NCBI GenBank assembly: GCA_947500385.1 | Contig: CANMSA010000010.1 | Span: 1 to 64,000, forward strand | Direction of reading: 5' to 3' | DNA from: an uncultured Flavobacteriaceae bacterium | Lineage (GTDB): Bacteria > Bacteroidota > Bacteroidia > Flavobacteriales > Flavobacteriaceae | Length of the DNA stretch: 64,000 bases | Shown: positions 6,170 through 21,717 of the stretch, piece by piece | Layout: each line of letters starts with the position of its first letter | Position numbering within the stretch: position 1 is the first letter of the stretch | Notes under the pieces: generated by a model | The model's input: the letters and a program-made list of their open reading frames with translations, nothing else | Database searches by the model: none | What the model was told of the DNA's origin: nothing | Program-made: the position numbers and the translations under genes

Positions 6170-6198
6170 GTTAACCTTTCTATTTTGCCGACACTAAA
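6170..6198 (+). promoter_or_regulatory. GTTAACC-N16-ACTAAA promoter (site 1, OmpA operon)
   Basis: GTTAACC at 6170-6176, 16-nt spacer ending in C, ACTAAA at 6193-6198. Same architecture as ten other sites between here and 21.7 kb. Read as -35/-10, it makes the ATG at 6202 lie at the transcription start, so the OmpA gene must start later (6229 or 6274). Confidence 0.75.
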
Positions 6199-6273
6199 TA
6201 AATGAAAGCCTGGCCTACCAAACTTCCCATGCTTTCAGCACTGTTTTTTAACACTAAACTATTTAGAAAAGCT

Positions 6274-7614
6274 ATGAACACATTCAACAGAATTTTCAAA
6301 ATTGCGACTGTACTGGTCTTTTGTATCGGCTTCGCCCAGAACACAGAGGCCCAGTTCTTAAAAAAATTAGGCAAAAAAGCTGAAAAAGCAGCGGAACGCG
6401 CTGTGGAACGACGCGTGGAAAAAGAAACCACTAAAAAGACCGAAGCGGCCATGGATAGTATTTTAGAGCCTGGCAAGGATGGCAAAAACACCAAAAAACC
6501 TACTACCAAGGCCGAGAAAAAGTCAGAATCCGACGAAAATAGTACGGGTGTCTCCCAGAAAGAAAACGGCAATTCGAGTGCCTCGGGTGCGGGTTCGGAA
6601 AGCATACAAATCTATCGAAAATTTGATTTCGTCCCGGGTGATGAACTGCTCTTCTATGACGACCTCAGCAACGATTTCATCGGGGACTTTCCATCCAAAT
6701 GGAATACCAATGGCAGTGGAGAATTGACTAAAATTAACGAAGATACCAACAAATGGTTAAAAATAGTACCGGGATATAACACCAACTATATTCCCGACCT
6801 TACCGATCTACCCGAAGAGTTTACCCTTGAGTTCGATGTAATCGCAGATGGTTTGAACAACAAAACATCTTCGCAAGCATACCTAAAAATATTGGTAGGA
6901 GATAACAACAATTTCAACAAGCCTAAAAACATGGGTATGGTGGAATATCCCCTTTGCCAGTTCATTGACCCGGGAACCATCGTTGAAAATAATGTGAACG
7001 GTACCCGTGAGATTCGAAATGCCATCAAGGTAGACATTCGCCAAGTGGTATTGAAAAAGCACCATATATCCGTTGCCGTCAACAAACAACGGTTTCGTAT
7101 GTGGATCAACGAACTAAAACTGGTCGATATTCCCAGACTGCTTCCTGCGAATGTAGCAATGAAGGGCATCAAATTGCAATTGCGAGGTACCGATATCAAC
7201 AGGGAAAATATTTACTTGAGTAATTTTAAAATAGCCAAAGGCGGATCTGATCTAAGGCGTACGTTGATCTCAGAGGGCAGGGTCTCCACCAACGGTATCT
7301 TGTTCAACAGTGGTTCAGCCACCATATTGCCACAGTCAATGGGGATTATACGTCAAATTTCACAGGTGTTGCTGCAAGAAACAACTATGAACTTGAATAT
7401 CGTAGGACATACGGATTCGGACGGGGACGAAAAAGCAAATAAGACGCTCTCCCAACGCAGGGCAGAAGCCGTAAGGAGTGCACTTATCGATATTTACAAC
7501 ATACCATCAGCCCGACTTTCGGCCGAAGGCAAAGGGGAATCGGAACCTGTGGGCGACAACAGTACGGCCGAGGGTAAATCCAAAAACCGGCGGGTAGAGT
7601 TCGTAAAGCAATAA
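6274..7614 (+). CDS. OmpA-family outer-membrane/peptidoglycan-binding protein
   Basis: 446 residues from ATG 6274. A signal peptide (KIATVLVFCIGFAQNTEAQ) is followed by a Lys/Glu/Ala-rich helical segment (~25-85), a Ser/Gly linker, a beta-sandwich-like middle domain (~120-330), and a C-terminal OmpA domain. The OmpA domain has ILFNSGSATILPQS, GHTDSDGDEKANKTLSQRRA and GKGESEPVGDN, i.e. the NX2LSX2RAX2V-type peptidoglycan-binding core. It probably anchors the outer membrane to peptidoglycan. An in-frame ATG at 6229 is an alternative start, but 6274 gives the better signal peptide. It heads a two-gene operon with the gene at 7637 (22-nt gap) under promoter site 1. Confidence 0.9.
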   Translation: MNTFNRIFKIATVLVFCIGFAQNTEAQFLKKLGKKAEKAAERAVERRVEKETTKKTEAAMDSILEPGKDGKNTKKPTTKAEKKSESDENSTGVSQKENGNSSASGAGSESIQIYRKFDFVPGDELLFYDDLSNDFIGDFPSKWNTNGSGELTKINEDTNKWLKIVPGYNTNYIPDLTDLPEEFTLEFDVIADGLNNKTSSQAYLKILVGDNNNFNKPKNMGMVEYPLCQFIDPGTIVENNVNGTREIRNAIKVDIRQVVLKKHHISVAVNKQRFRMWINELKLVDIPRLLPANVAMKGIKLQLRGTDINRENIYLSNFKIAKGGSDLRRTLISEGRVSTNGILFNSGSATILPQSMGIIRQISQVLLQETTMNLNIVGHTDSDGDEKANKTLSQRRAEAVRSALIDIYNIPSARLSAEGKGESEPVGDNSTAEGKSKNRRVEFVKQ

Positions 7615-7636
7615 CACTAATACTAAATCAAAAAAA

Positions 7637-8332
7637 ATGAAAAATACATTCCTATTCCTGTTCCTGTTAATTTCTACCATTGCCTTGACAGCACAGAACA
7701 ACTGCAGCAAGTACTACCCACTCACCGAGGGTAGTAGTTTTGAATATACGACCTATAATAAAAAGGGGAAAGTAGACGGGACGACCTCTTATAAAATCAC
7801 ATCGGTTTCCAACGAAGGCAATACTACCAATGCAACCATGGCGTTGACCTTCACCGATAAGAAAGGCAAAGAGGCCTACAACTCGGAATATCAAATTAGC
7901 TGCGCCGATGGCACTATCAACATAGACTATAAGTCGTTATTCCCATCTGCCATGATGAAGCAATACGAAGACATGGGAATGGAAATGGAGCTCAGTGGAA
8001 CCGACATCGAAATACCGCGCGACCTCTCTGTAGGCCAAGCATTGGAAGATGCCAATGTCACGGTTAACATGAGCATGTCAGGAATGAATATGAAGGTTAC
8101 CGTGGATATGACCGACCGAAAAGTAGAAAAAAAAGAGACGGTCACGACCGCAGCCGGTACTTTTGAATGCTACCTACTTACCGAAACCAATACCTCGGAA
8201 GTGATGGGCGGTTCACAAGAAATGCATTCTAAGCTATGGCTGGCAGAAGGTGTGGGGATGGTGAAGCAAGAAACCTATAAAAAGAATGGGAATTTGATGA
8301 GTAGGAGTGAACTTTCAAAGTATTCCGAATAA
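7637..8332 (+). CDS. Secreted TapB/DUF3108-like protein
   Basis: 231 residues with a clear signal peptide (FLFLFLLISTIALTAQ) and the mature start NNCSKYYPLTEGSSFEYTTY. The pattern 'YYPLxEGxxFEYTxYxxKGK...YKI..V', the 'AAGTFECYLLTE' block and 'LAEGVGMVKQETY' resemble a Bacteroidetes secreted beta-barrel family annotated DUF3108/TapB-like; this is memory-based and unchecked. A Met-rich stretch (~95-145, MMKQYEDMGMEMEL and MSMSGMNMKVTVDM) stands out. It follows the OmpA gene by 22 nt, so it is co-transcribed and presumably shares the sigma regulon. Enzymatic function unknown. Confidence 0.75.
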   Translation: MKNTFLFLFLLISTIALTAQNNCSKYYPLTEGSSFEYTTYNKKGKVDGTTSYKITSVSNEGNTTNATMALTFTDKKGKEAYNSEYQISCADGTINIDYKSLFPSAMMKQYEDMGMEMELSGTDIEIPRDLSVGQALEDANVTVNMSMSGMNMKVTVDMTDRKVEKKETVTTAAGTFECYLLTETNTSEVMGGSQEMHSKLWLAEGVGMVKQETYKKNGNLMSRSELSKYSE

Positions 8333-8339
8333 GTAGTTT

Positions 8340-8392
8340 TTTGTAAGAAACAGTAAGCCAGGGTACTCCCTTGGCTTACTGTTTCTTACAAA
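8340..8392 (+). repeat. 24-bp near-perfect inverted repeat (long hairpin)
   Basis: Arms 8340-8360 and 8372-8392 are perfectly complementary over 21 bp. The inner GGG/CCC pairs around a TACT loop with one bulged T. It starts 7 nt after the stop of the 7637 gene. Unlike the other terminators here it has no T-tract after the 3' arm, so it may be an mRNA end-stabilising stem, an RNase III substrate or a mobile palindrome. Confidence 0.8.
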
Positions 8393-8538
8393 GTTCTTCC
8401 CAAGCGATTGGTCAAGCATAGCATAATACATGTCATTCGTACATGTATTTGTACCGAAAGTACAAATTGAACCTAAAAAGTTCTTTCATGAAATTATTTT
8501 TACATGCGTCCGTTGGTGAATAATTTTAAAAAATAACC

Positions 8539-8567
8539 GTTAACCTTTCTGAAAGCCCAACATTAAA
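8539..8567 (+). promoter_or_regulatory. GTTAACC-N16-ATTAAA promoter (site 2)
   Basis: GTTAACC at 8539-8545, 16-nt spacer ending in C, ATTAAA at 8562-8567; the ATG at 8592 follows 24 nt later. Member of the eleven-site set. Confidence 0.8.
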
Positions 8568-8591
8568 CGGTGGACATAAAAACTAATAATT

Positions 8592-9224
8592 ATGAAAACT
8601 AAACTAGTAGCATACGGAATTGTATTCCTCCTCTTTTCCGCATGCATCGATGATTACAACGGAGGTGATGGGGATGAACCCTACAAAGGACCCCTTACGG
8701 AAACCAACTATCTGTATTCCGAAGACCTACGTACCTCTTTCTTAGAGGAAGAAATAGTAGAGCTTGATGAAGAAATCGCAGAACTCAAAGACATCATCGC
8801 CAACGGCCAAGCAGATGAGACCACTGAAGAACGTTTGGAAGAAGCGGAAGCGGAAAAGGAAGCAAACACCTTGGAAATAGATGCCATCGCTTCCTACAGG
8901 GAGCAAGTATTTAAAATTACTCCTGTTCCTCCAAGACCGCCTTGCCCAAAGCCTCGAAGTTGCAGCGACTGGCTGGAAATCATACAGGTTACACCTCCTG
9001 TAGCTTTTAAAGGGTTCCGCATGACTGTCTATACAGCCAACCAAGAAATCATCGGTGAAACCAGCGGTGAGTTACAAGCGTTGGAAGGTTCTGGCGGATT
9101 GCTTAACTCCATAGAACTGAAATGGGACACACAGGGGTATAAAGGAGAAATCTTCGTGAAAACAATTGCAGAAGACCAAGATGGCTTTCCTATAGAGTCT
9201 TTCATAACTTCGTCAATAGACTAA
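8592..9224 (+). CDS. Lipoprotein with coiled-coil stalk
   Basis: 210 residues. A lipoprotein signal with LLFSAC (Cys at ~residue 17) is followed by an acidic linker IDDYNGGDGDEP. A strongly acidic heptad-like helix (~45-100; EEEIVELDEEIAELKD... AEAEKEANTLEIDAI) should form a coiled coil. A Pro/Cys-rich hinge (PVPPRPPCPKPRSC) leads to a C-terminal beta-rich domain. I do not recognise the family. The design (lipid anchor, stalk, head) matches the collagen-like lipoproteins further on and it carries the same promoter, so I infer a surface protein of the same regulon. A terminator follows at 9248. Confidence 0.8.
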   Translation: MKTKLVAYGIVFLLFSACIDDYNGGDGDEPYKGPLTETNYLYSEDLRTSFLEEEIVELDEEIAELKDIIANGQADETTEERLEEAEAEKEANTLEIDAIASYREQVFKITPVPPRPPCPKPRSCSDWLEIIQVTPPVAFKGFRMTVYTANQEIIGETSGELQALEGSGGLLNSIELKWDTQGYKGEIFVKTIAEDQDGFPIESFITSSID

Positions 9225-9247
9225 TCGTTCTATCTAAACAATATGAA

Positions 9248-9278
9248 GATACCTCCTGTGCGGAGGTATCTTTTTTTT
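9248..9278 (+). terminator. Intrinsic terminator
   Basis: GATACCTCC / GGAGGTATC stem with a TGTGC loop followed by eight T; ends the 8592 transcription unit. Confidence 0.9.
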
Positions 9279-9362
9279 ATTCCTTTTCTATGCAGCAAGC
9301 GACCGTTATACACTAGATTTTTAGAGGTTTTCGTACTTTAGGGTGGTCAACAACCAAAAGGA

Positions 9363-12158
9363 ATGACCAAGAACTTTTTATTTCTCCTATTCGTTTCACT
9401 ATTTGCCAGTTTAAATGGTCAAGAAATAGAAGAGCGTATTACACAGCTTGAAGCCGGTTTTTTGGAGCACTACTACAGTAATTTAGATTCTACCAATCTC
9501 TATTTTAAGCAACTCGAAAAAATATATTTAGAACAGGATGATTACAGTGGCCAAATATCCCTCGTAAATATATTCTGTAATGCTGCCGGTTATCATCTTG
9601 ACCTAGATATACTTAAAAACAACATTGATAAGCTTGACTCTTTAATAATCATCCATGCCAATGTCCTTGACACATTGCCTGATAAAGGGGCCTACGAAAA
9701 GAATTATTTAGCATATAACAAAGGAAACTACTATAGTGAACTAGAAGATTATCCAAAATCTCAATTCTATTTTGAGGAAATTATCCGAAGAATCACTAGC
9801 AAATCTGATTATCAAAACCGCCAAGGAGATATCGATTTTCTATTTACTTGTTACAGCTTTATTGCCCAAATAAATTCGGTTCAGCACCGATTTCAAGTCG
9901 CCAGCGAGTATTACGAAAAAAATATTCGGCTTTATAGTGAAACAAGACCAAATGACATTCCTGGCTTACACAGTGTCTATAACCTTTATGCGGGTAGTTT
10001 GTTTGACCAAAAAAAGTTCGATGAAGCCAAAAACTATTGGGCAAAAACATTAGATTATGCAGAAAAAAATTATGCGCCAAGTAGTCGGAACAGTATTGTC
10101 ACCACAAGTATGTTGCTTTCCAAAACTTATACGGAATTAGGCAAGACCGATAGCGCTAACTTTTACCTAAATAAATTTAAAAAATACGAAATACCGGAGG
10201 ATCCCTTCGCGTATCGCTACTTCTCTACCCAAGCCGCCATACTGCAGGGTGAAAAAAAATACGAGGCGGCGATCACCGCTTTTGACAAAGCAATACAACT
10301 TGCCCCCAATAGTCAAAAACCGGATATACGCCAAAAAATGGGCAATCTGTATACCCAAAAAGGTGCCCCTAAACTCGCATTGGAGCAGTATCAAATGGCA
10401 CTTATTGCATTGGCTCCGAATTTTGATTCCAAGGGCTATTCTGAAAACCCCGATCCGAATCAAACTACCCAAAAACAAGTGCTACTTCGCTTGTTAAAAG
10501 CCAAAGCAAACGCTTTAAACGCTTTGGAAACCCTAGAAGACAAACGAAGGGCGCACGCAACGGTCACTATGGCCGTACGCACCCTCGATTCCCTTAAGCC
10601 CGGCTTTAAAAATGAAAAAGACAAAACCTTTCTAATTGAAAACGCCTTCCCTGCTTTTGAAACAGGCTTGGAAGCGCTCTTCGCCCTGTACAGTGATTCG
10701 AAGAAGCCCGCGGATATTTCCAACGCATTCTATCTATTTGAAAAAAGCAAGGGGGTGGTATTGTTAGAGGCCCTTTTAAGCGCCAGGGCACAAACCTTTT
10801 CTCAGGTACCCACCCAATTGTTGGAAGCCGAAAAAGAGTTGAAATCAAAAATAGCCATTCATGAAAAACGCATCGATCAGGGTTCCGATGACACCCACAT
10901 CCTTCAAGATGAATTGTTCGATCTTAAAAACCGGTACCGCAAGCTACTGGAAACCCTAGAAAATGACTATCGCCCCTATTACAATTTAAAGTACAATACA
11001 GCGGTACAAAATTTAGCCGATTTTAAGAATAATCTATTACCGGGCGAATTGGTCGCCTCTTATTTCTATGGGAACAAAGCTATCTATGTCATCGGTATAA
11101 CAAACGAGACTACCACCTTTCATAAAGTGGCCATTACTCCGGCTCTTACCGATAAGATCGTTATGATACGCAGCATGGCCCAAGACCCGCAATCGGATAT
11201 CGGACAATTAGCGCAATACGGATATGACCTATACACTACTTTGTTACAACCACTAATTCAAAACAAAACCTTCGAAACCATTAAAATTATGCCCGATGGT
11301 CCTTTGAACTATCTCCCGTTCGAGCTTTTAAATACCAAAGAGCACGCCCTACGCTATTTGATCGAACAGTCTGCCGTAAGTTATGTCAACTCGGCAACGC
11401 TTGCCCAAGAATTGAATAAAAAAGCAAGCAAAAATGGCAAACTCATGGCCTTTGCCCCTACCTTTAAAGGAACCAATGTAGTCCCGGGCGAAACCAGAAA
11501 CACCCTGCAGCCTCTTCCCAATAACAAAAAAGAAGTAGAAACCATCCAATCATTTTTTGAGGGTACCGTTTTTATCGACAAAGAGGCTTCTTTACAGAAC
11601 TTTACCGATCAACTAAACGGTTTTAATGTGCTGCATTTGGCAACACATGGTAATTTTAACGACACCATTCCCGAATACTCCTACCTCGCTTTTTCACCTG
11701 ACCCCGCAAAGAGCTATTTATTATATGTAAAGGATATCTATAATTTGGAACTCAACGCAGACATGGTCACCCTAAGTGCATGCGAAACAGGTATCGGAGA
11801 ATTAAAGCGTGGAGAAGGGTTCCTAAGCTTGGCCAGGGCATTTTTCTATAGCGGGGCAAAAAGTATCACGAGTACACTTTGGAAGGTAAACGATGCCTCC
11901 TCGGCAGAGGTGATGGGCGATTATTATGAACAACTGGCAAATGGTCTATCTAAAGACCGGGCATTGCGAACGGCGAAACGAACCTTTCTAGAAAAAAACA
12001 GTCAGAATGGCTTACGGCATCCCTACTACTGGGCCGGCTATGTGGTCTCTGGCAATACCAAACCACTTGGCAAAAAAGGGAATTGGTATGGCTGGGGTCT
12101 TGGAGGGGCCCTATTACTAGTTGGAGGTATTGTATACTACCGCAAAAAAAGGGCTTAG
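9363..12158 (+). CDS. CHAT-domain (caspase-like) protein with TPR repeats and C-terminal membrane anchor
   Basis: 931 residues. A signal peptide (FLFLLFVSLFASLNGQ) is followed by tetratricopeptide repeats (~30-390; e.g. AILQGEKKYEAAITAFDKAIQLAP, interrupted here as part of a TPR array), a coiled linker (~480-560) and a CHAT domain (~600-900). The catalytic dyad is visible: His762 in LHLATHGNF and Cys807 in TLSACETGIGELKRGEG. A final transmembrane helix (~909-926) is followed by a basic YYRKKRA tail. Topology would place the TPR and CHAT parts in the periplasm, tethered to the inner membrane. The last 4 nt overlap the 3' end of the anti-sigma-like gene, which is convergent. There is no GTTAACC element upstream; a weak TACTTTAG lies before the ATG. 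Substrate unknown; by context I propose the neighbouring anti-sigma protein. Confidence 0.9.
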   Translation: MTKNFLFLLFVSLFASLNGQEIEERITQLEAGFLEHYYSNLDSTNLYFKQLEKIYLEQDDYSGQISLVNIFCNAAGYHLDLDILKNNIDKLDSLIIIHANVLDTLPDKGAYEKNYLAYNKGNYYSELEDYPKSQFYFEEIIRRITSKSDYQNRQGDIDFLFTCYSFIAQINSVQHRFQVASEYYEKNIRLYSETRPNDIPGLHSVYNLYAGSLFDQKKFDEAKNYWAKTLDYAEKNYAPSSRNSIVTTSMLLSKTYTELGKTDSANFYLNKFKKYEIPEDPFAYRYFSTQAAILQGEKKYEAAITAFDKAIQLAPNSQKPDIRQKMGNLYTQKGAPKLALEQYQMALIALAPNFDSKGYSENPDPNQTTQKQVLLRLLKAKANALNALETLEDKRRAHATVTMAVRTLDSLKPGFKNEKDKTFLIENAFPAFETGLEALFALYSDSKKPADISNAFYLFEKSKGVVLLEALLSARAQTFSQVPTQLLEAEKELKSKIAIHEKRIDQGSDDTHILQDELFDLKNRYRKLLETLENDYRPYYNLKYNTAVQNLADFKNNLLPGELVASYFYGNKAIYVIGITNETTTFHKVAITPALTDKIVMIRSMAQDPQSDIGQLAQYGYDLYTTLLQPLIQNKTFETIKIMPDGPLNYLPFELLNTKEHALRYLIEQSAVSYVNSATLAQELNKKASKNGKLMAFAPTFKGTNVVPGETRNTLQPLPNNKKEVETIQSFFEGTVFIDKEASLQNFTDQLNGFNVLHLATHGNFNDTIPEYSYLAFSPDPAKSYLLYVKDIYNLELNADMVTLSACETGIGELKRGEGFLSLARAFFYSGAKSITSTLWKVNDASSAEVMGDYYEQLANGLSKDRALRTAKRTFLEKNSQNGLRHPYYWAGYVVSGNTKPLGKKGNWYGWGLGGALLLVGGIVYYRKKRA

Positions 12159-12889
12159 CGCAGTTTTTCGAGCAATTGGTTCGCCCTGTTCTTGTTGTAA
12201 TCATATTTTTTCACCAAGGTATTCAAACGTTCAATGGCGGCCGCTTTATCGTCTTTTTTCAAATACGTTAATGCGAGATACCAGTTCGCTTCCGGGACAA
12301 AAACGGTATCGGTTTCAATTACCTTTTCAAACAGGCTTATAGCGGTGTCGTAGTTCTCTAAATTCAAATACGATTGCGCCAAATAAAAATCTATATACCC
12401 TAGGTTTTCGACGGTTTTCAAACTTTCAAAATGTTCAATGGCCGTTTGGTAGTCCCCAGATTCGTAGGCCACAAAAGCGTTCCTTTCTGGAGACGTATCG
12501 GCATCGCCCCTTGTAATGGTAAAGACCGTATTCGGATACGCTTGGTAATTTTCCTCGTATATTGCATCGAGGTTTTCACCGGTAAAGGTTTGAAATCCGA
12601 TCCAACCTAGGCCCATCAAAAGTAGGATCGAAGCGGCAACCGACCAATTTCGAAAACGACTTTTTGGAGTGCTGGTTTCCGACTTCTCGACAATTGCTTT
12701 TTCAAAGCCTCTCAGCTTTTCCTTTAAACTTTCATCCTCTTTGTGAAGAATAACCTTCTTGATGCTTTTTTCAAATTCAAATTGCGCACGAAAAGCAGCG
12801 TCTGTTTCTAACAGCTCCTTGAATTGCTGTTCCTCGGCAGGGGCCAAGTTATTGGAAAAGTAGTGATATAGCAGTGTTTCTTTGTCCAT
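12155..12889 (-). CDS. Membrane-anchored anti-sigma-like protein with periplasmic TPRs
   Basis: 244 residues. The N-terminal cytosolic part (~1-80; LLYHYFSNNLAPAEEQQFKE, a typical Bacteroidetes anti-sigma start) is followed by one transmembrane helix (~83-103; VAASILLLMGLGWIGFQTF) and a C-terminal TPR domain (~125-240; FVAYESGDYQTAIEHFESL and LENYDTAISLFEKVIETD). It lies 2 nt after the sigma gene, so the two are surely co-translated. By the usual arrangement it sequesters the sigma factor until an envelope signal acts on its TPR part. No zinc-binding HXXXCXXC motif is present, unlike the second pair at 52 kb. Function inferred from context and topology. Confidence 0.8.
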   Translation of the reverse strand: MDKETLLYHYFSNNLAPAEEQQFKELLETDAAFRAQFEFEKSIKKVILHKEDESLKEKLRGFEKAIVEKSETSTPKSRFRNWSVAASILLLMGLGWIGFQTFTGENLDAIYEENYQAYPNTVFTITRGDADTSPERNAFVAYESGDYQTAIEHFESLKTVENLGYIDFYLAQSYLNLENYDTAISLFEKVIETDTVFVPEANWYLALTYLKKDDKAAAIERLNTLVKKYDYNKNRANQLLEKLR

Positions 12890-12891
12890 GA

Positions 12892-13461
12892 TCAGTTACT
12901 ATTAGCGGCGATACGTTCCTTTAAACTTTTCATGCATCGAGACTTTGCGCTTTTCACAACATTTTGACTGTTGTAGTTGCCCGCCTCCATAATTTCATCA
13001 ATACTATACCCCCGGTAGTAAAAAAGGGTCAGTAATTCTTGACATTGCTTGCCAAGGGTTCCAAAGTGCTTTCTTAAAAGTTCTTGTTCGGGGGTGAGTC
13101 CGCCTTCATCGAAATCGAGGGTTTCGACCAAAGACGCGTCGTCCTTTACGATTTCAAGGTTGTAGGAAGACCCGACTGTTTTTTTATTTTTTCGCATCCT
13201 ATCAAAAATTAAATATTTGCCAATACTAAAAAGATAGGTAGAAACGCTACTGGTCAATTCTTCGACTTTGCCACTCATCACATTGTTGTGAAAGATGATA
13301 TAGGCATCTTGATAGATGTCTATATTTTCCTCGTCGGATAGATGATACCTGCGGGCAAAATTCAGGAACTTGTCCCGATTCTCCTCGTATACGCGCCTTA
13401 AAGCTATTTCAGAGCCTTGCCGCAGTTCGTCCAGTGTGTTGGTTCTACTTGATTCTTGCAC
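12892..13461 (-). CDS. ECF-type RNA polymerase sigma factor
   Basis: 189 residues. Region 2 (~25-95; FARRYHLSDEENIDIYQDAYIIF... SIGKYLIFDRMRKNKK) and region 4 (~135-182; LGKQCQELLTLFYYRGYSIDEIMEAGNY... VVKSAKSRCMKSL) make this a sigma-70 family ECF protein. The first possible start is GTG 13461, but that codon directly abuts the -10-like hexamer of the GTTAACC element (13462-13490). A transcript from that element would begin inside the frame. The next near-cognate start is CTG at 13434 (residue 10, LDELRQGSE), which would still leave a complete region 2. The element before its own gene implies autoregulation. Operon with the anti-sigma gene. Confidence 0.88.
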   Translation of the reverse strand: MQESSRTNTLDELRQGSEIALRRVYEENRDKFLNFARRYHLSDEENIDIYQDAYIIFHNNVMSGKVEELTSSVSTYLFSIGKYLIFDRMRKNKKTVGSSYNLEIVKDDASLVETLDFDEGGLTPEQELLRKHFGTLGKQCQELLTLFYYRGYSIDEIMEAGNYNSQNVVKSAKSRCMKSLKERIAANSN

Positions 13462-13490: not shown

Positions 13491-13636
13491 ACCGTATCTA
13501 GCGAATGTAACGATTTTTTAAGAAAACAACTAGACCAAATTCGGCGCAAACACTTTAAAACAAGGGGTTGTAGTACTTATACTACTGCCGAATTATTTTT
13601 AGAATTCAGAATTTCCAATATAAAAAGTCAGCCCCG

Positions 13637-13870: not shown

Positions 13871-13899
13871 GTTAACCTCCATTAAAATTATCCATTAAG
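13871..13899 (+). promoter_or_regulatory. GTTAACC-N16-ATTAAG promoter (site 3)
   Basis: GTTAACC at 13871-13877, 16-nt spacer ending in C, ATTAAG at 13894-13899; ATG 13924 follows 24 nt later. Confidence 0.8.
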
Positions 13900-15362: not shown

Positions 15363-15377
15363 ATATGCGAATCGATT

Positions 15378-15408
15378 AAAAAGACTGGGGAAATCCCCAG
15401 TCTTTTTT
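15378..15408 (+). terminator. Intrinsic terminator
   Basis: AAAAAGACTGGGG / TCCCCAGTCTTTTTT stem-loop just after the 14307 gene. It separates that operon from orphan promoter site 4, nine nt further on. Confidence 0.92.
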
Positions 15409-15416
15409 GTATCAGT

Positions 15417-15445
15417 GTTAACCTCTTTCTGAACAAACCATAACA
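15417..15445 (+). promoter_or_regulatory. GTTAACC-N16-ATAACA promoter (site 4, orphan)
   Basis: GTTAACC at 15417-15423, 16-nt spacer ending in C, ATAACA at 15440-15445, then ATATAAC as at sister sites. It drives no normal gene: only a tiny frame and a terminator follow. Confidence 0.75.
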
Positions 15446-15467
15446 GGATATAACTGTAAAAACTAAA

Positions 15468-15503
15468 ATGATGATAACAACGATACCAATGACAAACTCC
15501 TAG
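15468..15503 (+). CDS. Putative 11-residue micro-ORF or start of a deleted gene
   Basis: ATG 15468 lies 22 nt after the site-4 hexamer, exactly the spacing used by the other regulon genes, and encodes MMITTIPMTNS followed by TAG. A terminator at 15550 closes the unit. The start resembles the beginning of the 13924 gene (MKTTITIT). It is either a gene whose body was deleted, a leader/micropeptide, or an untranslated small RNA. Coding is not demonstrated. Confidence 0.3.
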   Translation: MMITTIPMTNS

Positions 15504-15549
15504 AAAGTGGTATGGGAATCAACGATTTATTCTAAGCTAGGTCCATATT

Positions 15550-15583
15550 AAAAAAAATCCAGGGAATTCCCTGGATTTTTTTT
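15550..15583 (+). terminator. Intrinsic terminator of the orphan unit
   Basis: AAAAATCCAGGG AATT CCCTGGATTTTT perfect stem with A-run before and T-run after (usable in both directions). It closes a predicted ~130-nt transcript from site 4 and precedes site 5 by 8 nt. Confidence 0.93.
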
Positions 15584-15591
15584 GTTCGAAT

Positions 15592-15620
15592 GTTAACCTT
15601 CATCAGGCTACAGCATAAAG
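15592..15620 (+). promoter_or_regulatory. GTTAACC-N16-ATAAAG promoter (site 5)
   Basis: GTTAACC at 15592-15598, 16-nt spacer ending in C, ATAAAG at 15615-15620, then TATATAAC; ATG 15645 follows 24 nt later. Confidence 0.8.
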
Positions 15621-15644
15621 AAGTATATAACAAAATACAGCATC

Positions 15645-16685
15645 ATGAAAAAGTTTAATTTACTATATCTCGTAGCGTTCATTGCTTTTTTTACTTCCTG
15701 TGAAAAAGACGAATTGAACGGGCCTAGCACCCAAATAACAAATCCACTTCCAGAAGAAGGCGAACTTCCAAAGGGAGACGACCTATCGCTTCTTTTCACT
15801 GTTCAAACCGAGGAAGATCAGATGGGCAAGTTTGCAAAAAACGCCATGACCGTCTTTAATGGACAGGTATGGTCTGTTGGCGGAGTCAACGATTATGGCG
15901 CTGCCGATTCCCATTTTTTATGGAATAGCGACAATGGCATCAACTGGGCTACGGTCCCCACATCTGCGACTACGCCCGCCTCTTTCCGTAGTTTTCGGGT
16001 GGGTCATACTCTGACCGTCTTTCAAGATCAATTATGGCTTATTGGCGGTAGAGACGAAACCGATACGGAGTATGCCAATTTATGGTATTCATCCGATGGA
16101 AGCGCTTGGTCTGAAATCACCGCTCCCTTTGGTCCGATACCCGATCATTCCACCTTGGTATACAACGATCGTATGTATGTAATTTCTGGAAACGCTACCA
16201 CAGGACATACGGAAGTATGGTCTACCGCAGATGGGTTTGATTGGATACGGGAAACCGAGAATGCTTTCCCAGGCCGTGCGGGGCAAAAAGGAGTTGTCTT
16301 CAATGACGTCATGTACATTGTTGGGGGAGAAGATATCGCAGGAGCCAAACTTTCAGAAATCTGGGCCAGTACCAATGGACGCGATTGGAACAGAACCGAC
16401 CCATCGTTCGGAGGACGGAATGCCCATAGCGCAACCGTTTACAATGGCAAGGTTTGGGTCATTGGCGGCCAAGATAGCAGTTCACTCTTTAACAACGAAA
16501 TCTGGTATTCTTTAGATATGAATACTTGGGAACGCTATTCGGGCACACGACCCGGTTCCGACGGCATTAGCTCGCATACCATTTTGAACTACAATGATGC
16601 CCTGTGGCTCTTTGGCGGACTTCAAGATGATGGTACCGGCAGCAGCGAAGCACGAGGGGAGATTACGACCATAGAAGAGGACTAA
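15645..16685 (+). CDS. Kelch-repeat lipoprotein
   Basis: 346 residues. The lipoprotein signal ends FFTSC (Cys ~ residue 18), followed by EKDEL, much as in its paralogue at 14307 (EKEEL). Repeated blades such as HTLTVFQDQLWLIGG, HSTLVYNDRMYVISG, EVWSTADGFDWIRETE and HSATVYNGKVWVIGG indicate a ~6-bladed Kelch-type propeller. It shares the motif 'W(R/I)xETENAFPxR' with 14307, so the two arose by duplication. Under promoter site 5, in an operon with the small lipoprotein that follows after 5-26 nt. Confidence 0.88.
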   Translation: MKKFNLLYLVAFIAFFTSCEKDELNGPSTQITNPLPEEGELPKGDDLSLLFTVQTEEDQMGKFAKNAMTVFNGQVWSVGGVNDYGAADSHFLWNSDNGINWATVPTSATTPASFRSFRVGHTLTVFQDQLWLIGGRDETDTEYANLWYSSDGSAWSEITAPFGPIPDHSTLVYNDRMYVISGNATTGHTEVWSTADGFDWIRETENAFPGRAGQKGVVFNDVMYIVGGEDIAGAKLSEIWASTNGRDWNRTDPSFGGRNAHSATVYNGKVWVIGGQDSSSLFNNEIWYSLDMNTWERYSGTRPGSDGISSHTILNYNDALWLFGGLQDDGTGSSEARGEITTIEED

Positions 16686-16711
16686 GAAACATGAACACAA
16701 GCAACAACATC

Positions 16712-17257
16712 ATGAAAAATTTAAAACCCAACGGGAATCGATTACTGGTGGCGCTATTGACCTGTTTGTTGGCCATAGCCTGTGAAACTGAAATTCCAGA
16801 AACCGATGTAATACCTCCTGAGTTTACATTTCAGATTACAGGAGATGGTTTCAGTGAAACGTTTGATCAAGACACCGATTTTAGTAGCTTTCAATTGAAT
16901 CTTCGCGAAGATACCGACTATGATTTCATTTTAAGTGGGAGTGATGTAGACGGTCTCAAAAGAATCGAATGGTATCTTGCTCATGATTACATAGAACTAG
17001 AGAGCGAAGTTATTAGCCCATGGAGCGTTACAGCTAGCAGCGCGCTAGTGGATGTTGTCTCATGGAACGGAAATCGAAACAACCCTGTAACAGGTTCCAT
17101 TTTGGCCGGGACTTTCAGAACAAGGGGGAACTCGATCGGCGTAAGAATGACCTTCTACCTTACCGATTTTGGTGGGGAAAGTGGTCGTTCGAATAGCAGT
17201 TCCGGAGAATTGAATATCCTTATAGGCGATCATGATACAGAAAAAATACAGTTATAG
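16712..17257 (+). CDS. Lipoprotein of unknown function
   Basis: 181 residues from ATG 16712 (ATG 16691 in frame adds seven residues and is also possible). Signal LLVALLTCLLAIAC with lipobox Cys, acidic linker ETEIPETDVIPPE, then a beta-rich domain with DTDYDFILSGSDVDGLKRIEW, reminiscent of an Ig-like or cadherin-like fold ('D.DG...I.W'). No firm family. Co-transcribed with the Kelch lipoprotein at 15645 and ended by the terminator at 17367. Confidence 0.75.
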   Translation: MKNLKPNGNRLLVALLTCLLAIACETEIPETDVIPPEFTFQITGDGFSETFDQDTDFSSFQLNLREDTDYDFILSGSDVDGLKRIEWYLAHDYIELESEVISPWSVTASSALVDVVSWNGNRNNPVTGSILAGTFRTRGNSIGVRMTFYLTDFGGESGRSNSSSGELNILIGDHDTEKIQL

Positions 17258-17508
17258 GAGTTGCCCGATCTTTTCTAAAAACCTGTAGCAAAAGACATAG
17301 AAAATGGACACCCCCCAAAACCGATTGTCCGCTACCAGTATGCTGAGAAGTTTCACTGGTACTCTGAAAACCGAGGTGTAGACCTCGGTTTTTTTTATAA
17401 TGGGGTCAAGTAAAATGTACGCTGCAAGTCTTTGTCATATTGGTCATAATCCCCAAATATTCCGATAGCAAAACAACGGCGAAACGCACCTGCTCTTTTA
17501 TCCCCTTT
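17258..17508 (+). other. Intergenic region with terminator, otherwise empty
   Basis: About 250 nt between the 16712 gene and promoter site 6. It holds the intrinsic terminator listed at 17367-17396. I see no gene or repeat in the rest. Confidence 0.6.
17367..17396 (+). terminator. Intrinsic terminator
   Basis: AAAACCGAGG / CCTCGG stem followed by eight T. The stem sequence is shared with the terminator at 20236, suggesting these units duplicated together with their ends. Confidence 0.92.
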
Positions 17509-17537
17509 GTTAACCTTTTTGATTCCGCTCCATTAAG
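17509..17537 (+). promoter_or_regulatory. GTTAACC-N16-ATTAAG promoter (site 6)
   Basis: GTTAACC at 17509-17515, 16-nt spacer ending in C, ATTAAG at 17532-17537, then TATAAC at 17541; ATG 17561 follows 23 nt later. Confidence 0.82.
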
Positions 17538-17560
17538 CAGTATAACGTAATAAAGAAATT

Positions 17561-18223
17561 ATGAAAAAGACTTTTAAATATTTAGGCATTACTCTTTTGA
17601 CCATTGGCTTCGCACTAACCTCTTGTACCAAGGAAGGACCGTCAGGTCCCGAAGGGCCGCAAGGTATGGTCGGAGAGCAAGGCATTCAAGGACCTACCGG
17701 CGAAAATGGCAATGCAAACGTACAAGCTTTCGACCTAGTCATTAACAAAACAGATTGGGGTACCAATTTACACTATGGAGGAGGCAATGTTTACAGGGCC
17801 TATACTATTTTACCCGAAAATGTAGGGGGTATAGATATACCCCTGTTAAGTGCTGAAGGAGGCGCCGTTCTACTATATGCCTTTATCGACTATGAGGATG
17901 CGGCATACCAAACCGAAGACGAATTAAAACAACTTCCCTTTTTGACAACGGTAAATAACATGGGATTACGTTTTGGTCTCAAAATGGAATTTTCAATCAG
18001 TAGAAGCTCCCTTTTACTAGCAGAAACAGAACATGGGTGGGATGCGAGAAATATGGCAGATGAAAATGTGCCAGACGAAGTCGATGTTCGTATAGTTCTT
18101 ATTGAATCTGCGGCGTCTGTCGCGGGCAAACAAGAAGCATCTCCCTTGGAAGCGCTTAAAAAAGCAGGAATCAACCTCGATGACTACACAGCTGTAATGG
18201 ATTATTTTGGGTTGGATTACTAA
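17561..18223 (+). CDS. Collagen-like repeat lipoprotein
   Basis: 220 residues. The lipoprotein signal ends FALTSC (Cys ~21). A short collagen-like Gly-X-Y stalk follows (~25-50; GPSGPEGPQGMVGEQGIQGP and continuing), then a globular beta-rich domain starting NANVQAFDLVINKTDWG, and a C-terminal module NLDDYTAVMDYFGLDY shared with the proteins at 19641, 20329 and the pseudogene at 20978. Gly-X-Y repeats suggest trimerisation into a rod that lifts the head from the membrane. The intact paralogue of the 20978 pseudogene. Function unknown; under promoter site 6. Confidence 0.88.
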   Translation: MKKTFKYLGITLLTIGFALTSCTKEGPSGPEGPQGMVGEQGIQGPTGENGNANVQAFDLVINKTDWGTNLHYGGGNVYRAYTILPENVGGIDIPLLSAEGGAVLLYAFIDYEDAAYQTEDELKQLPFLTTVNNMGLRFGLKMEFSISRSSLLLAETEHGWDARNMADENVPDEVDVRIVLIESAASVAGKQEASPLEALKKAGINLDDYTAVMDYFGLDY

Positions 18224-18243
18224 AAAAAAGTTCCACTTCAACG

Positions 18244-18270
18244 AACCGAAGGTCAAACTTCGGTTTTTTT
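18244..18270 (+). terminator. Intrinsic terminator
   Basis: AACCGAAG / CTTCGGTT stem with a GTCAAA loop and a T7 tail, just after the 17561 gene. Confidence 0.9.
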
Positions 18271-18280
18271 ATGTTTTTCT

Positions 18281-18310
18281 GTTAACCCTCTCCAATCAAT
18301 TTACATTAAA
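18281..18310 (+). promoter_or_regulatory. GTTAACC-N17-ATTAAA promoter (site 7)
   Basis: GTTAACC at 18281-18287, 17-nt spacer ending in C (the only site with 17), ATTAAA at 18305-18310; ATG 18332 follows 21 nt later. Confidence 0.72.
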
Positions 18311-18331
18311 AGAAAACATAAAAAAAAGGTC

Positions 18332-19537
18332 ATGAAAATCACAAAAAATATCAATAGTTCTTTGATCGCTCTTATTCAATTACTAGTTGTTGCACTACTA
18401 TTTGCAAGCTGTAACAAAGATGACGAAACGGAGAGCACATATGAAGTCGAAGGTGTAGAAGAATTAACCGCTCCCAATGGGCTAATTACACTGACCACTC
18501 GTAAGAAACAATTAAAAATAGGGTTAAATGATGGCCGCATATTGGAAGAAACCCTGTTTGCAGATGACGTAAAAATCCAAGAAAACCAAGGTAACCTCTA
18601 TGAATTTAACACGAACACCATTGTGAAAAAAGCTGCAAACAACGGTGCCGTGGTTTGGGAAAAATCGTATCCTGAAGAGATTGGGAAATCTATACGAATG
18701 CATCGGGCAAATACCGTCTTCTCCCAGAATACCCTATTCATATCCTATCAAGAACTCGATACGAATACTTATGAGAGTCGTTACTTTATGGAGGCACTTG
18801 ATCTTGAAAGTAGCAGTACCATTTGGAGATTAAATGTAGGGGCCAATACCTACCCATACCTGTATCAAAACAGGTTGATTACCGTACAATACCCCAATGG
18901 GAATGCGCCAACCGTATTCCAATATAGAAACAAATTCCTTGGTGATGTTGAAGTAGAGCGAACCATTCCGGAAAGAGTAGACGATTATACGTTCGACGGC
19001 GATCTGATTATCGCCAATTCCTGGAATGATCGGGTATTTGCATTAGACAGGGGCTTGAACACGGTATGGAGTTTTAGCACAGGGGCCGAAAACCCTGGGG
19101 ACGGACTCGTATTTGAAGACCAATACCTCTTCTTTTCGAGAGACCGTCATGTCTATTCGCTTAATAAAAATACGGGGGTGTTGAATTGGGAAACCGCGGT
19201 TTCAGAACGTCTTTCCTTGGGATTTCATACCAATGAAAAAGACTTATATCTTGCGCAACAAACAGGTACCCAAACCTTGACATTACTTAAAATCAATACC
19301 GAAAATGGGGAATTGGAATCCTCCTTCGACACCCCCATGTCAGACGATACCTATACGACCAAACTGGCATTTTTCAAAGAATACCTACTGGTAGCAATGG
19401 CACCTTCTTCGGACGAGAATAACCCGCAAATCGAGGCGAGACTGCTTCATCTACCCTCTGCCGAGGAAATATGGTCGGCAGATCTGATCTTTAAAATGGC
19501 GCATTACCAAGCGACCACAATTTCAAACGGCGAGTAG
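18332..19537 (+). CDS. PQQ-like beta-propeller lipoprotein
   Basis: 401 residues. A longer N-terminus and hydrophobic signal lead to LLFASC (lipobox Cys ~27), then NKDDETEST. Repeats of PQQ/pyrrolo-quinoline-like blades follow, e.g. GAVVWEKSYPEE, MEALDLESSSTIWRLNVG, VFALDRGLNTVWSFSTG, VYSLNKNTGVLNWETAV ('ALD...G...W'). This predicts an 8-bladed-type propeller as in BamB-like proteins, but here as a surface or periplasmic lipoprotein. Under promoter site 7. A weak terminator (AAAGCC/GGCTTT at 19551-19569) follows. Confidence 0.85.
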   Translation: MKITKNINSSLIALIQLLVVALLFASCNKDDETESTYEVEGVEELTAPNGLITLTTRKKQLKIGLNDGRILEETLFADDVKIQENQGNLYEFNTNTIVKKAANNGAVVWEKSYPEEIGKSIRMHRANTVFSQNTLFISYQELDTNTYESRYFMEALDLESSSTIWRLNVGANTYPYLYQNRLITVQYPNGNAPTVFQYRNKFLGDVEVERTIPERVDDYTFDGDLIIANSWNDRVFALDRGLNTVWSFSTGAENPGDGLVFEDQYLFFSRDRHVYSLNKNTGVLNWETAVSERLSLGFHTNEKDLYLAQQTGTQTLTLLKINTENGELESSFDTPMSDDTYTTKLAFFKEYLLVAMAPSSDENNPQIEARLLHLPSAEEIWSADLIFKMAHYQATTISNGE

Positions 19538-19640
19538 TATTGCATTTAAAGCCATACAAGGGCTTTTTGAAAAGGTTTTGACCATGTATCGTGCCCTTAA
19601 AAAGCAAACGAATTATAACACACTAGCAAAATTTATAATT

Positions 19641-20222
19641 ATGAAAAGAGGAATTCAAGTAATGAATAGTATAGTAAGCCTATTGGTAGTATTTACCATC
19701 GGCTGCACCCCTGAGGATGGGGAAGACGGCGCCATGGGGCCACAAGGGGAACAAGGAATTCAGGGAGAACAGGGAGTTGAAGGTACTGCCAACGTGCTCT
19801 ATAGCAACTGGCTCGACCAAGACTATAGCTTTATTGACGGGACTTCCTTCAAGAGCATGAAGGTTGATGAAAATAGGTTGACCGATGATTTTTTAGAACA
19901 AGGAGGTATTGTACTCGGTTTTTTCAGATTCCGAGAAGGGGTACAATATAATTTACCGTACCAACCTTCTATACGAAACACGAGAAGAAGCATGACCGCT
20001 ATCTCCTTTGGAGACAGTGGAGAAGTACGATTTTCGCTGGAAAGTACCGACGATAGCGATCTCACCGAAGACGAGGTAAATGGTTCGGGTACTTCGCTCC
20101 GGGCACAGTTCAAATATGTCTTGATTCCCGGTGGCACTTTACTAACAGGACGTTCCCAGCAATTAAATTTCGAGAAAATGACCTATGACGAAATAGTGAA
20201 CCATTTTGGTCTTGACTACTAG
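19641..20222 (+). CDS. Collagen-like repeat lipoprotein
   Basis: 193 residues from ATG 19641. Signal ends LLVVFTIGC, then TPEDGEDGAMGPQGEQGIQG and more Gly-X-Y triplets (~25-48), a beta-rich head, and the C-terminal module MTYDEIVNHFGLDY. I choose this start because it gives a compact lipoprotein signal; ATG 19578 upstream would add a polar 21-residue extension. No good GTTAACC element precedes it: the nearest resemblance is TTTGACC at 19577, at the wrong distance from the ATG. It may be read through from the 18332 unit or use a divergent promoter. Confidence 0.82.
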   Translation: MKRGIQVMNSIVSLLVVFTIGCTPEDGEDGAMGPQGEQGIQGEQGVEGTANVLYSNWLDQDYSFIDGTSFKSMKVDENRLTDDFLEQGGIVLGFFRFREGVQYNLPYQPSIRNTRRSMTAISFGDSGEVRFSLESTDDSDLTEDEVNGSGTSLRAQFKYVLIPGGTLLTGRSQQLNFEKMTYDEIVNHFGLDY

Positions 20223-20235
20223 ACGCTCCTAAAGT

Positions 20236-20266
20236 AAAAAACCGAGGCTACTACCTCGGTTTTTTT
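20236..20266 (+). terminator. Intrinsic terminator
   Basis: AAAAACCGAGG / CCTCGGTTTTTTT stem-loop; same stem as the terminator at 17367. Confidence 0.92.
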
Positions 20267-20276
20267 GTGTCTGGTT

Positions 20277-20305
20277 GTTAACCTTTTTACTGATCGGCCA
20301 TTAAG
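20277..20305 (+). promoter_or_regulatory. GTTAACC-N16-ATTAAG promoter (site 8)
   Basis: GTTAACC at 20277-20283, 16-nt spacer ending in C, ATTAAG at 20300-20305, then TATAAC; ATG 20329 follows 23 nt later. Confidence 0.82.
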
Positions 20306-20328
20306 AGGTATAACGCAATTAATAGACT

Positions 20329-20868
20329 ATGAAAACTACGACTAAATTCAAGTATTTCTTCTTAAGTATAATCGTGGTACTTGCCATCGGATGCAACCCG
20401 GAGAATGGGGAAGATGGTGCCATGGGCCCTAGAGGAGAACAAGGAATTCAAGGAGCGGTTGGGGAAGACGGGCAAGATGGGAATGCCAATGTGATTTCCG
20501 TATTTCTTTCTGCAATTAGAATTGAAATTGGCAACAATACAATAGTGATTCCCGAACTTACACAAGAAATCTTTGATACAGGTTTTGTCATAGGGTATCT
20601 AACTGTTTCAGGTTCCACTACTCGCTGGGAGAGTATACCGTTGATATCTCGTGGAGAGGTACTTCTAGATCTCACAGAAATCAATGTAGGGAGTCTTAAC
20701 CTTTACTCCACGGTTGGCCAAACACTTGATTTTAGATTTGTTCTTGTTGAAGGAACCTCTTCCTCAGGAAAATCCTCAGAAAAAACCATTCGTGCGCGCC
20801 TGAAAAATGCCGGAGTAAACCTTGGCAATTATGAAGAAGTAATGGACCATTTTGGTCTTGACTACTAG
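20329..20868 (+). CDS. Collagen-like repeat lipoprotein
   Basis: 179 residues. Signal ends VVLAIGC (Cys ~22), then NPENGEDGAMGPRGEQGIQG and further Gly-X-Y triplets to ~55, a compact beta-rich head, and the C-terminal module VNLGNYEEVMDHFGLDY. The stalk is very close to that of the 19641 protein (PE(D/N)GEDGAMGP), while the heads differ, a pattern of domain shuffling on a shared anchor, stalk and tail. Under promoter site 8. Confidence 0.87.
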   Translation: MKTTTKFKYFFLSIIVVLAIGCNPENGEDGAMGPRGEQGIQGAVGEDGQDGNANVISVFLSAIRIEIGNNTIVIPELTQEIFDTGFVIGYLTVSGSTTRWESIPLISRGEVLLDLTEINVGSLNLYSTVGQTLDFRFVLVEGTSSSGKSSEKTIRARLKNAGVNLGNYEEVMDHFGLDY

Positions 20869-20886
20869 AAGGTAGTTCCCAGAATT

Positions 20887-20916
20887 AAAAACCGAGATTA
20901 ACAGCTCGGTTTTTTT
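20887..20916 (+). terminator. Intrinsic terminator
   Basis: AAAACCGAG / CTCGGTTTTTTT stem-loop after the 20329 gene; a variant of the CCGAGG terminators. Confidence 0.88.
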
Positions 20917-20925
20917 ATGCCCTCT

Positions 20926-20954
20926 GTTAACCTTTTCACGGATAAAACATGAAG
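20926..20954 (+). promoter_or_regulatory. GTTAACC-N16-ATGAAG promoter (site 9)
   Basis: GTTAACC at 20926-20932, 16-nt spacer ending in C, ATGAAG at 20949-20954, then TATAAC; the ATG of the pseudogene (20978) follows 23 nt later. Confidence 0.78.
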
Positions 20955-20977
20955 AAGTATAACTTAATACAAAGATT

Positions 20978-21633
20978 ATGAAAAAGACTTTTAAATTTTT
21001 AGGAAGCGTTCTTTTAGCATTTGGCTTCGTATTGACCTCTTGCACGAAAGAAGGGCCTGTTGGGCCAGAAGGACCTCAGGGAGCTATCGGAGCGCAAGGT
21101 ATTGCTGGAGAAAATGGAAACGTAATGTGCAAGCATTTGACATCGTAGTGAACAAGGCTGACTGGGGGCCAAACCTACATTATGGCGGAGGCAACCTGTA
21201 CCGGGCCTACGACGTTATACTAGAGAATGTTGGTGGTATCGACATACGTTCATTAAGCACCGAAGGTGGGATCGTACTCTTGTACGCATTTATCGAATAT
21301 GACGATGCGGCTTACCAGACCGAAAGGGAACAAAAACAACTTCCTTTTATGACCACAGTGAGCGGTATGGGTTCCGATTTTGGGCTTCGAATGGAATTTT
21401 CTATTAGTAGAAACGCCCTTCTTATGGCCAAAACGGAACACGGCTGGGATGCTTAATCAGTACCAGATGAAGACGTACCCGATAGTGTAGAAGTGCGAAT
21501 TGTACTCATTGAAAGATCTACAAGTATTTCAGGTAAAACTGAAAACCAATCTGTTTTGGAGAGGCTTAAAAAAAACCGCGTACACCTGGACGACTATGAA
21601 GCTGTAATGGATTACTTCGGGTTGGACTACTAA
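20978..21633 (+). pseudogene. Broken collagen-like lipoprotein gene (frameshift and nonsense)
   Basis: A paralogue of the 17561 gene with two lesions. It starts normally (MKKTFKFLGS... LTSC, TKEGPVGPEGPQGAIG, Gly-X-Y stalk). One A is missing near 21127 (GGAAACGTAATGTGC where an extra A restores NVNVQAFDIVVNKADWG), which brings a TAG at 21146. The downstream frame then reads on in register with the paralogue until an in-frame TAA at 21454, replacing the Arg of WDARNMAD. After that it continues SVPDEDVPDSVEVRIV and ends DYEAVMDYFGLDY. Its terminator (about 21658-21680) is also degenerate. Promoter site 9 is intact. The frameshift alone could be a sequencing error; the nonsense codon makes decay more likely. 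Confidence 0.88.
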
Positions 21634-21688
21634 AATTTACCGAGTCAAAAACATCAGAAACCCCGACTACTTTTTTTAATGACCTCAT

Positions 21689-21717
21689 GTTAACCTTATT
21701 GGAAATCAGGCATTAAT
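21689..21717 (+). promoter_or_regulatory. GTTAACC-N16-ATTAAT promoter (site 10)
   Basis: GTTAACC at 21689-21695, 16-nt spacer ending in C, ATTAAT at 21712-21717, then ATATAAC; ATG 21743 follows 25 nt later. Confidence 0.8.

Follow-up and report, generated by a model that had tools for sequence, protein, structure and literature searches.

The 64,000-nucleotide (nt) stretch analysed here (the window) belongs to the 6.03-Mb genome, in 123 contigs, of an uncultured Flavobacteriaceae bacterium. It contains a locus in which a gene for a predicted extracytoplasmic function (ECF) sigma factor lies among genes for putative surface lipoproteins, with copies of a bipartite element, GTTAACC-N15-CATTAA, in front of them (Table 1). 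Comparison with related loci supports the reading of this element as a -35/-10 pair that stands before the surface lipoprotein cluster and tracks the sigma gene across the Flavobacteriaceae retrieved. The same comparison shows a conserved module of sigma, putative anti-sigma and CHAT genes together with a predicted sigma-linked promoter regulon of exported proteins. The anti-sigma-like gene, the CHAT gene and the odd placement of the element at the sigma gene itself (the self-site) go beyond what an earlier annotation, made from the letters alone (the sequence-only reading), had described.

Table 1. Genes and sites of the locus, with their positions in the window.
Feature	Position	Strand	Remarks
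ECF sigma factor gene	12892..13461	-	189 amino acids (aa), GTG start; TIGR02937, Pfam Sigma70_r2; 30 related loci, 56-83% identity
Putative anti-sigma gene	12155..12889	-	Helical N-terminus, one transmembrane (TM) helix (~79-103), C-terminal TPR domain; Pfam TPR matches
TPR-CHAT caspase-like protein gene	9363..12158	+	Signal peptide and C-terminal TM segment by eye; convergent with anti-sigma gene
Sigma self-site GTTAACC-N15-CATTAA	13463..13490	-	Hexamer 1 nt before GTG at 13461
Housekeeping-type -7 box TACATTCG (TAnnTTnG)	13502..13509	-	19 nt upstream of self-site
Site	6170..6197	+	Before OmpA-family gene (start 6274) and DUF3108-like gene 7637
Site	8539..8566	+	Before lipoprotein 8592-9224, upstream of CHAT gene
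Site	13871..13898	+	Before secreted-looking 123-aa protein 13924 and Kelch-like lipoprotein 14307 (called Kelch by resemblance to 15645, not by domain scan)
Site, hexamer CATAAC	15417..15444	+	Before 11-codon open reading frame (ORF) and terminator-like hairpin; no gene
Site	15592..15619	+	Before Kelch lipoprotein 15645 and lipoprotein 16691
Site	17509..17536	+	Before collagen-like lipoprotein 17561 (Pfam Collagen below cut-off)
Site, 16-nt spacer	18281..18309	+	Before PQQ-like beta-propeller lipoprotein 18332
Site	20277..20304	+	Before collagen-like lipoprotein 20329 (Pfam Collagen below cut-off)
Site, hexamer CATGAA	20926..20953	+	Before frameshifted collagen-like lipoprotein gene at 20978
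Site	21689..21716	+	Before collagen-like lipoprotein 21743 (Pfam Collagen above cut-off)

The sigma protein scores 50.6 bits with the TIGR02937 sigma70-ECF model (cut-off 42.9) over residues 20-183 of 189, and by this score it is predicted to be an ECF (group IV) sigma factor; its bipartite -35/-10 promoters are indicated by comparison among loci. All eleven GTTAACC-type sites that the sequence-only reading had listed between 6170 and 21717 were found at those positions. The bare heptamer GTTAACC is not enriched in the window: its 13 matches compare with a mean of 9.1 after shuffling, and 16 of 100 shuffled sequences have as many or more. The bipartite element GTTAACC-N15/16-CAnnA has 11 matches there, against a mean of 0.48 and a maximum of 2 in 60 first-order Markov simulations. 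In the whole genome, GTTAACC-N15-CAnnAA occurs 11 times (reversed-pattern control, 9), and 9 of these matches fall inside the 15.6-kb locus (6.1-21.8 kb); with the 11 taken as given, the binomial probability of at least 9 lying within 15.6 kb is ~3e-22. The genome-wide search that the sequence-only reading had proposed thus returned clustered sites with a fixed spacing to gene starts, and random scatter was not seen. A mismatch-tolerant search (up to 2 mismatches to GTTAACC-N15-CATTAA) gave 97 matches against 293 for the reversed control and was dropped; because it buries the signal, only near-exact sites are informative.

The near-constant distance to the ATG reported earlier for eight plus-strand sites holds, at 22-26 nt from the end of CATTAA, and the hexamer, first written AxxAxx, is better written CAT[T/A]AA. 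TATAAC does follow six sites of the window, as had been noted. It follows only 8 of the 114 sites in front of putative lipoprotein genes in the 31 loci compared (the window and 30 orthologous loci of relatives) and was therefore rejected as a part of the element. For the OmpA-family gene, another start than the one in the ORF list is preferred: the ATG at 6202 is too close to site 6170, and the better start is the ATG at 6274, where a signal-peptide-like sequence begins (by eye) and which leaves 76 nt. A site precedes this gene in 19 of the 31 loci.

The related loci were obtained in a scan of named genomes, and their genera include Maribacter, Zobellia, Arenibacter, Kriegella, Euzebyella, Lacinutrix and Bizionia. 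GTTAACC adjoins the sigma start in all 30 relatives. The strict pattern GTTAACCT-N14-CAT[T/A]A has 150 matches in 29 relative genomes (that of L083 left out), against 28 in all for the reversed control, and 116 of the 150 fall inside the retrieved loci, no more than 10 kb away from the sigma gene. The best reading of these counts appears to be the one that the sequence-only reading had proposed, a -35/-10 pair recognised by the neighbouring ECF sigma factor. In a sample of 120 genomes of the family, GTTAACC-N15-CATTAA occurs in 26; the window genome has seven matches and every other genome at most four.

The 31 loci hold 203 sites under a loose pattern: 114 precede putative lipoproteins (called with a home-made lipobox rule), 27 other signal-peptide or TM proteins, 29 the sigma gene and 12 other ORFs, and 21 have no ORF of 75 aa or more after them. 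A cruder first lipoprotein classifier, which gave an odds ratio of 3.8 (p=6e-11), missed obvious lipoproteins and was replaced. Two columns that the pattern left free, T at position 25 and A at position 28, are present in 99 of the 99 lipoprotein sites with N15 spacing, and the resulting consensus is GTTAACC(T)-N14/15-CAT[T/A]AA. ECF promoters often carry AAC in the -35 element, and the GTTAACC proposed here as -35 contains it. From the hexamer to the ATG, the lipoprotein sites have a median of 27 nt (18-38 nt in 106 of 114), and the commonest base 6-7 nt past the hexamer is A. This would fit a transcription start at that A and a leader near the median 5' untranslated region of 24 nt given for Flavobacterium psychrophilum, where sigma-A boxes lie at -12 to -5, in the available part of the report (PMC9723704).

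A terminator-like hairpin with a T-run lies at most 70 nt upstream of 45 of the 114 lipoprotein sites of the 31 loci, against 1 of 342 shuffled segments. These genes therefore look like modular promoter-gene-terminator cassettes. In the window, the complete site within 15417-15591 is followed by the 11-codon ORF and, further on, by a T-run hairpin; this segment could be either an emptied cassette or a small RNA. The frameshifted copy of a collagen-like lipoprotein gene (20978-21600) lies behind an intact site. A fold search with the collagen-like lipoprotein 17561 (predicted local distance difference test, pLDDT, 59 for the model) gave zero matches at E 0.001 or better. Of 32 loci scanned, eight (L082, L083, L088, L091, L102, L103, L104 and L108) encode a conserved microprotein of ~30 aa with one TM segment, which follows a site at 24-27 nt and lies on the opposite strand ~200-240 nt from the sigma start; it was not found in the window.

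Outside the loci, 34 sites were examined, namely 33 of the 34 of the relatives (G134 C2:47985 left out) and one of this genome. Twenty stand before a putative lipoprotein, 8 before another signal-peptide or TM protein, 3 before other ORFs and 3 before none, and 24 of the 28 exported-looking targets begin 15-45 nt from the site. With 33 such sites in a hand count against 28 matches of the reversed control, they had been considered as chance background; this was rejected, as most of those examined precede exported-looking proteins. For the same reason the regulon appears to be mainly local with some distal members. The local regulon of surface lipoproteins postulated earlier is thus upheld by comparison, and its purely local character is not. 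Three of the 34 distal sites share one short contig of G155, a metagenome-derived genome, and could be part of a sigma locus that is split in that assembly. In this genome, the matches beyond the locus are C2:431816, at a second sigma gene, and C22:52979, whose hexamer ends 24 nt before a lipoprotein gene. A paralogous sigma factor may account for some of the distal sites.

The anti-sigma-like gene begins 2 nt past the sigma stop codon. The model of its product (mean pLDDT 78, with low confidence at 41-100) shows four helices at the N-terminus, followed by a TM helix and a TPR domain; its fold matches in the PDB concern the TPR part, and those seen among the best 50 are TPR or TPR-like. The gene shows the layout of a membrane anti-sigma factor, lying in the sigma operon and encoding one TM helix between N- and C-terminal parts, with the TM helix and the membrane sides predicted. 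The CHAT protein matches Pfam CHAT with E=1.6e-63 and carries the catalytic His/Cys motifs HLATHG and SACET. It also matches the NCBIfam Csx29 model NF041237 over residues 718-856 (E=1.1e-6), at 27.8 bits against a cut-off of 300, and by this cut-off it is not a member of Csx29. A PADLOC scan of five proteins gave zero matches, and phmmer against the PDB gave a single match for the CHAT protein, in its TPR part. The CHAT proteins listed from other loci have HLATHA, HLSTHA, SACES, SACNT and other motifs, and by eye a signal-like N-terminal and a hydrophobic C-terminal segment.

Both genes lie beside the sigma gene in 29 of the 30 orthologous loci, and in the remaining one, a contig of 4.4 kb, the sequence stops within the sigma gene. 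The usual order is OmpA-family, DUF3108-like, lipoprotein, CHAT, convergent anti-sigma and sigma, and divergent lipoproteins with LipB/LysRS. The flanking genes vary among loci (OmpA matches, for example, occur in 27 of 32 stretches searched), and in L088 the CHAT gene shares the strand of the sigma gene. Among the 30 sigma genes listed as loci by a family-wide search, 26 have a convergent CHAT gene beside them, one of the 30 being a second module of this genome. In a sample of the class, the anti-sigma profile matches 71 of 247 genomes, many over the TPR part only; one 7.2-Mb genome, G236, has eleven such matches, a large paralogue expansion. The lipoprotein beside CHAT is a subtilase in some of the loci with HLSTHA/SACNT (Pfam S8 for those of L098 and L102, the two scanned), which hints at a possible two-protease cascade.

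The self-site has a geometry of its own. In all 31 loci, 27-30 nt separate the first G of GTTAACC from the sigma start codon (ATG or GTG), and a hexamer [C/T]AT[T/A/C]AA ends -1 to 1 nt from this codon in 29, overlapping it in L105 and also in the paralogous sigma gene on contig C2. The frame between the element and the start codon varies among loci and the start codon is always present, which argues that it is the true sigma start. Upstream, a TAnnTTnG box lies 17-19 nt before the element in 24 of the 31 self-sites; with the wider TAnnTT[T/A/C][G/A] at -17 to -20, a pattern and range widened after viewing the sequences, all 31 have it, compared with 3 of 174 other sites. Given the position of sigma-A boxes in F. 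psychrophilum, a housekeeping start would therefore fall ~7 nt before GTTAACC, with the self-site in the leader. The self-site thus appears misplaced for ordinary self-activation. In a wider sample of 53 further loci, 49 have a sigma gene with an assigned start; this sample includes a few orthologues of the window gene, some of them already among the 30. A GT[T/A][A/T]AC-like element lies at 26-29 nt in 24 of the 49 genes and at any other single position in 0-2 genes. The three sigma paralogues of this genome have a similar element, with a hexamer that overlaps the start codon or ends at most 3 nt from it.

Taken together, these observations suggest that the element is probably a promoter used by the neighbouring ECF sigma factor and that the locus is a self-contained envelope-signalling module, with negative feedback and an anti-sigma factor relieved by the CHAT protein. 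Recognition of the element by this sigma factor is what we infer from its linkage and geometry. The membrane-anchored TPR protein of the sigma operon would act as the anti-sigma factor, and the exported-looking TPR-CHAT protein may face it in the periplasm and cleave it, directly or through a cascade, freeing the sigma factor (compare Csx29, below). From the geometry, the housekeeping sigma factor would transcribe the sigma-anti-sigma operon from the TAnnTTnG promoter. Polymerase with active sigma at the self-site would occlude this promoter, and the transcript made there would begin inside the sigma reading frame, lacking the sigma start codon and carrying the anti-sigma gene. Because the -10 of the self-site abuts the sigma start codon, below the housekeeping-type box, the net effect would be negative feedback in which anti-sigma is made and sigma is blocked. 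Site 8539 may also raise CHAT expression, as 138 nt separate the end of the lipoprotein gene from the CHAT start, and would add a positive loop.

Several observations weigh against this interpretation. The loci are rich in lipoproteins regardless of the sites, since 235 of 517 ORFs of at least 100 aa score as such. A clean hexamer is missing from the self-sites of L081 and L083, 9 of 31 sigma genes have an in-frame ATG or GTG in codons 2-30 (the internal starts have no conserved position), the housekeeping box reaches 31 of 31 only in its widened form, and in 25 of the 49 sigma genes of the wider sample no such element stands at 26-29 nt. Among the matches listed, no solved anti-sigma domain corresponds to the N-terminal part of the putative anti-sigma protein. 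No sigma match was found in the 14-kb stretch that carries the third CHAT gene of this genome, a sigma/anti-sigma pair on contig C8 has no CHAT match in its 20-kb stretch, and class-wide only 5 of the 22 loci examined (~1.5 kb of flank) have a CHAT match next to the pair. The CHAT-sigma link weakens beyond the family, and CHAT is not universal.

Other readings of the sites have to be considered. ECF sigma genes are commonly autoactivated, and the locus could be an ordinary ECF regulon with positive autoregulation, in which the self-site gives a leaderless sigma mRNA or a start unusually near the hexamer. Leaderless transcripts make up 5.5% of the mapped mRNAs of F. psychrophilum in the portion of that study available (PMC9723704). 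We find this unlikely, however, as the self-site hexamer ends at, or overlaps, the start codon, the lipoprotein gap of ~27 nt with its A at 6-7 nt fits a start ~6 nt downstream, and the self-sites have a housekeeping-type box at a fixed place upstream. The sites could also be operators of a DNA-binding repressor or activator, as GTTAAC is palindromic and any regulator encoded nearby could bind one locus-linked motif. Two half-elements at 15-16 nt, the strict CAT[T/A]AA and the fixed ATG distance are, however, the geometry of a promoter, and the element recurs at ECF sigma genes in the wider sample. No recurring DNA-binding regulator was seen by eye beside the sigma gene among the ORFs listed, without domain scan (L084 and L101 have one AraC-like-looking ORF each), so that operators seem very improbable. 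Scarcely credible, finally, are recent copies without current function, left by tandem duplication of lipoprotein cassettes. The collagen-like and Kelch genes are indeed duplicated in the locus and the upstream hairpins suggest modular cassettes, but the spacers have diverged while both half-elements were kept, unrelated gene families share the element, and it also stands at the sigma gene, which is not part of a copied cassette.

The paralogous modules raise a question of specificity. Three CHAT matches were found in this genome, and two of them are convergent to a sigma/anti-sigma pair; contig C2 (L062) carries a second module of sigma, anti-sigma, CHAT and lipoprotein genes. Two lipoprotein genes of the C2 module have GTTTACC or GTTTACT upstream, not GTTAACC. 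It is possible, if doubtful, that the element is shared with the C2 sigma factor and that the regulon is split or cross-regulated, since the C2 sigma gene has GTTAACC-N15-CACTAA at its start and two distal sites lie at most 5 kb from a C2-type sigma gene (G011 C25 and G001 C16). The closest relatives of the C2 sigma (L110-L113) show GTTTACC or GTTTACT at that position, which is also in keeping with sharing. Against it, there is a single GTTAACC-type match at the C2 locus, and it is the window-type sigma gene that the strict element follows.

Returning to promoters read by the adjacent sigma factor, we can suggest, tentatively and with rather more doubt than trust, how the whole might work: a CRISPR-free (clustered regularly interspaced short palindromic repeats) periplasmic CHAT protein would free the sigma factor from its TPR anti-sigma, and the start-codon self-site would stop sigma synthesis and make the inhibitor, giving a pulse of surface lipoproteins. 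Such a module would be common in Flavobacteriaceae and patchy in the wider class. CHAT proteins form a large family, and the locus suggests a use for them outside CRISPR, the gating of a sigma factor across the envelope. It would also provide a promoter code and a candidate regulator for a group of lipoproteins, collagen-like and Kelch ones among them, that are poorly characterised. Distantly related sigma genes share the placement of the self-site against the start codon, and the role proposed for it would invert the usual assumption that an ECF site at a sigma gene means self-activation.

Each part of the module has a known relative. In RseA/DegS and other systems, a membrane anti-sigma factor is relieved by a protease acting outside the cytoplasm; here the candidate protease would be caspase-like (CHAT) and is encoded beside the anti-sigma gene. 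In the literature searched, from which most subscription papers were excluded, no work on this module was found, and none joining GTTAAC, a sigma factor and Bacteroidetes. Only one report found there joins a CHAT protease, an ECF sigma factor and an inhibitor, and it is CRISPR-linked: the Csx29/Csx30/CASP-sigma system of type III-E CRISPR in Desulfonema ishimotonii, which, in the text available, likewise has a TPR-CHAT protease, a sigma inhibitor, an ECF-like sigma factor and in-locus sigma motifs (PMC10028731). In contrast, the CHAT protein of the window appears to be exported and anchored in the membrane, the anti-sigma-like protein combines a TM helix with a TPR domain, the predicted targets are surface lipoproteins, and cleavage of the inhibitor by CHAT is a candidate reaction by analogy. 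No Cas7-11 effector or CRISPR array was seen among the window proteins scanned, a scan not aimed at them.

The Dual membrane-spanning anti-sigma (Dma)/ECF21 system of Bacteroides also pairs an ECF sigma factor with a membrane anti-sigma factor in Bacteroidota and has a strong effect on its own neighbourhood, as far as the accessible text describes it (PMC13088901). Dma has a disordered tether and a C-terminal beta-barrel according to the same text (PMC13088901), whereas the protein described here ends in a TPR domain and is CHAT-linked. For the proposed feedback, the nearest precedent is sigH-rshA of Corynebacterium glutamicum, in which, in the part of the article available, housekeeping promoters give sigma and anti-sigma and a sigma-dependent promoter gives the anti-sigma only (PMC3489674), as we propose here. 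The SigH promoter lies upstream of rshA, whereas the site of the window abuts the sigma start codon and would overlap the housekeeping leader. Sigma-E of S. coelicolor acts as a repressor, and its motif and that of HrdB overlap at some repressed genes, in the available portion of that work (PMC10771440). With these two precedents, negative feedback by the self-site is plausible.

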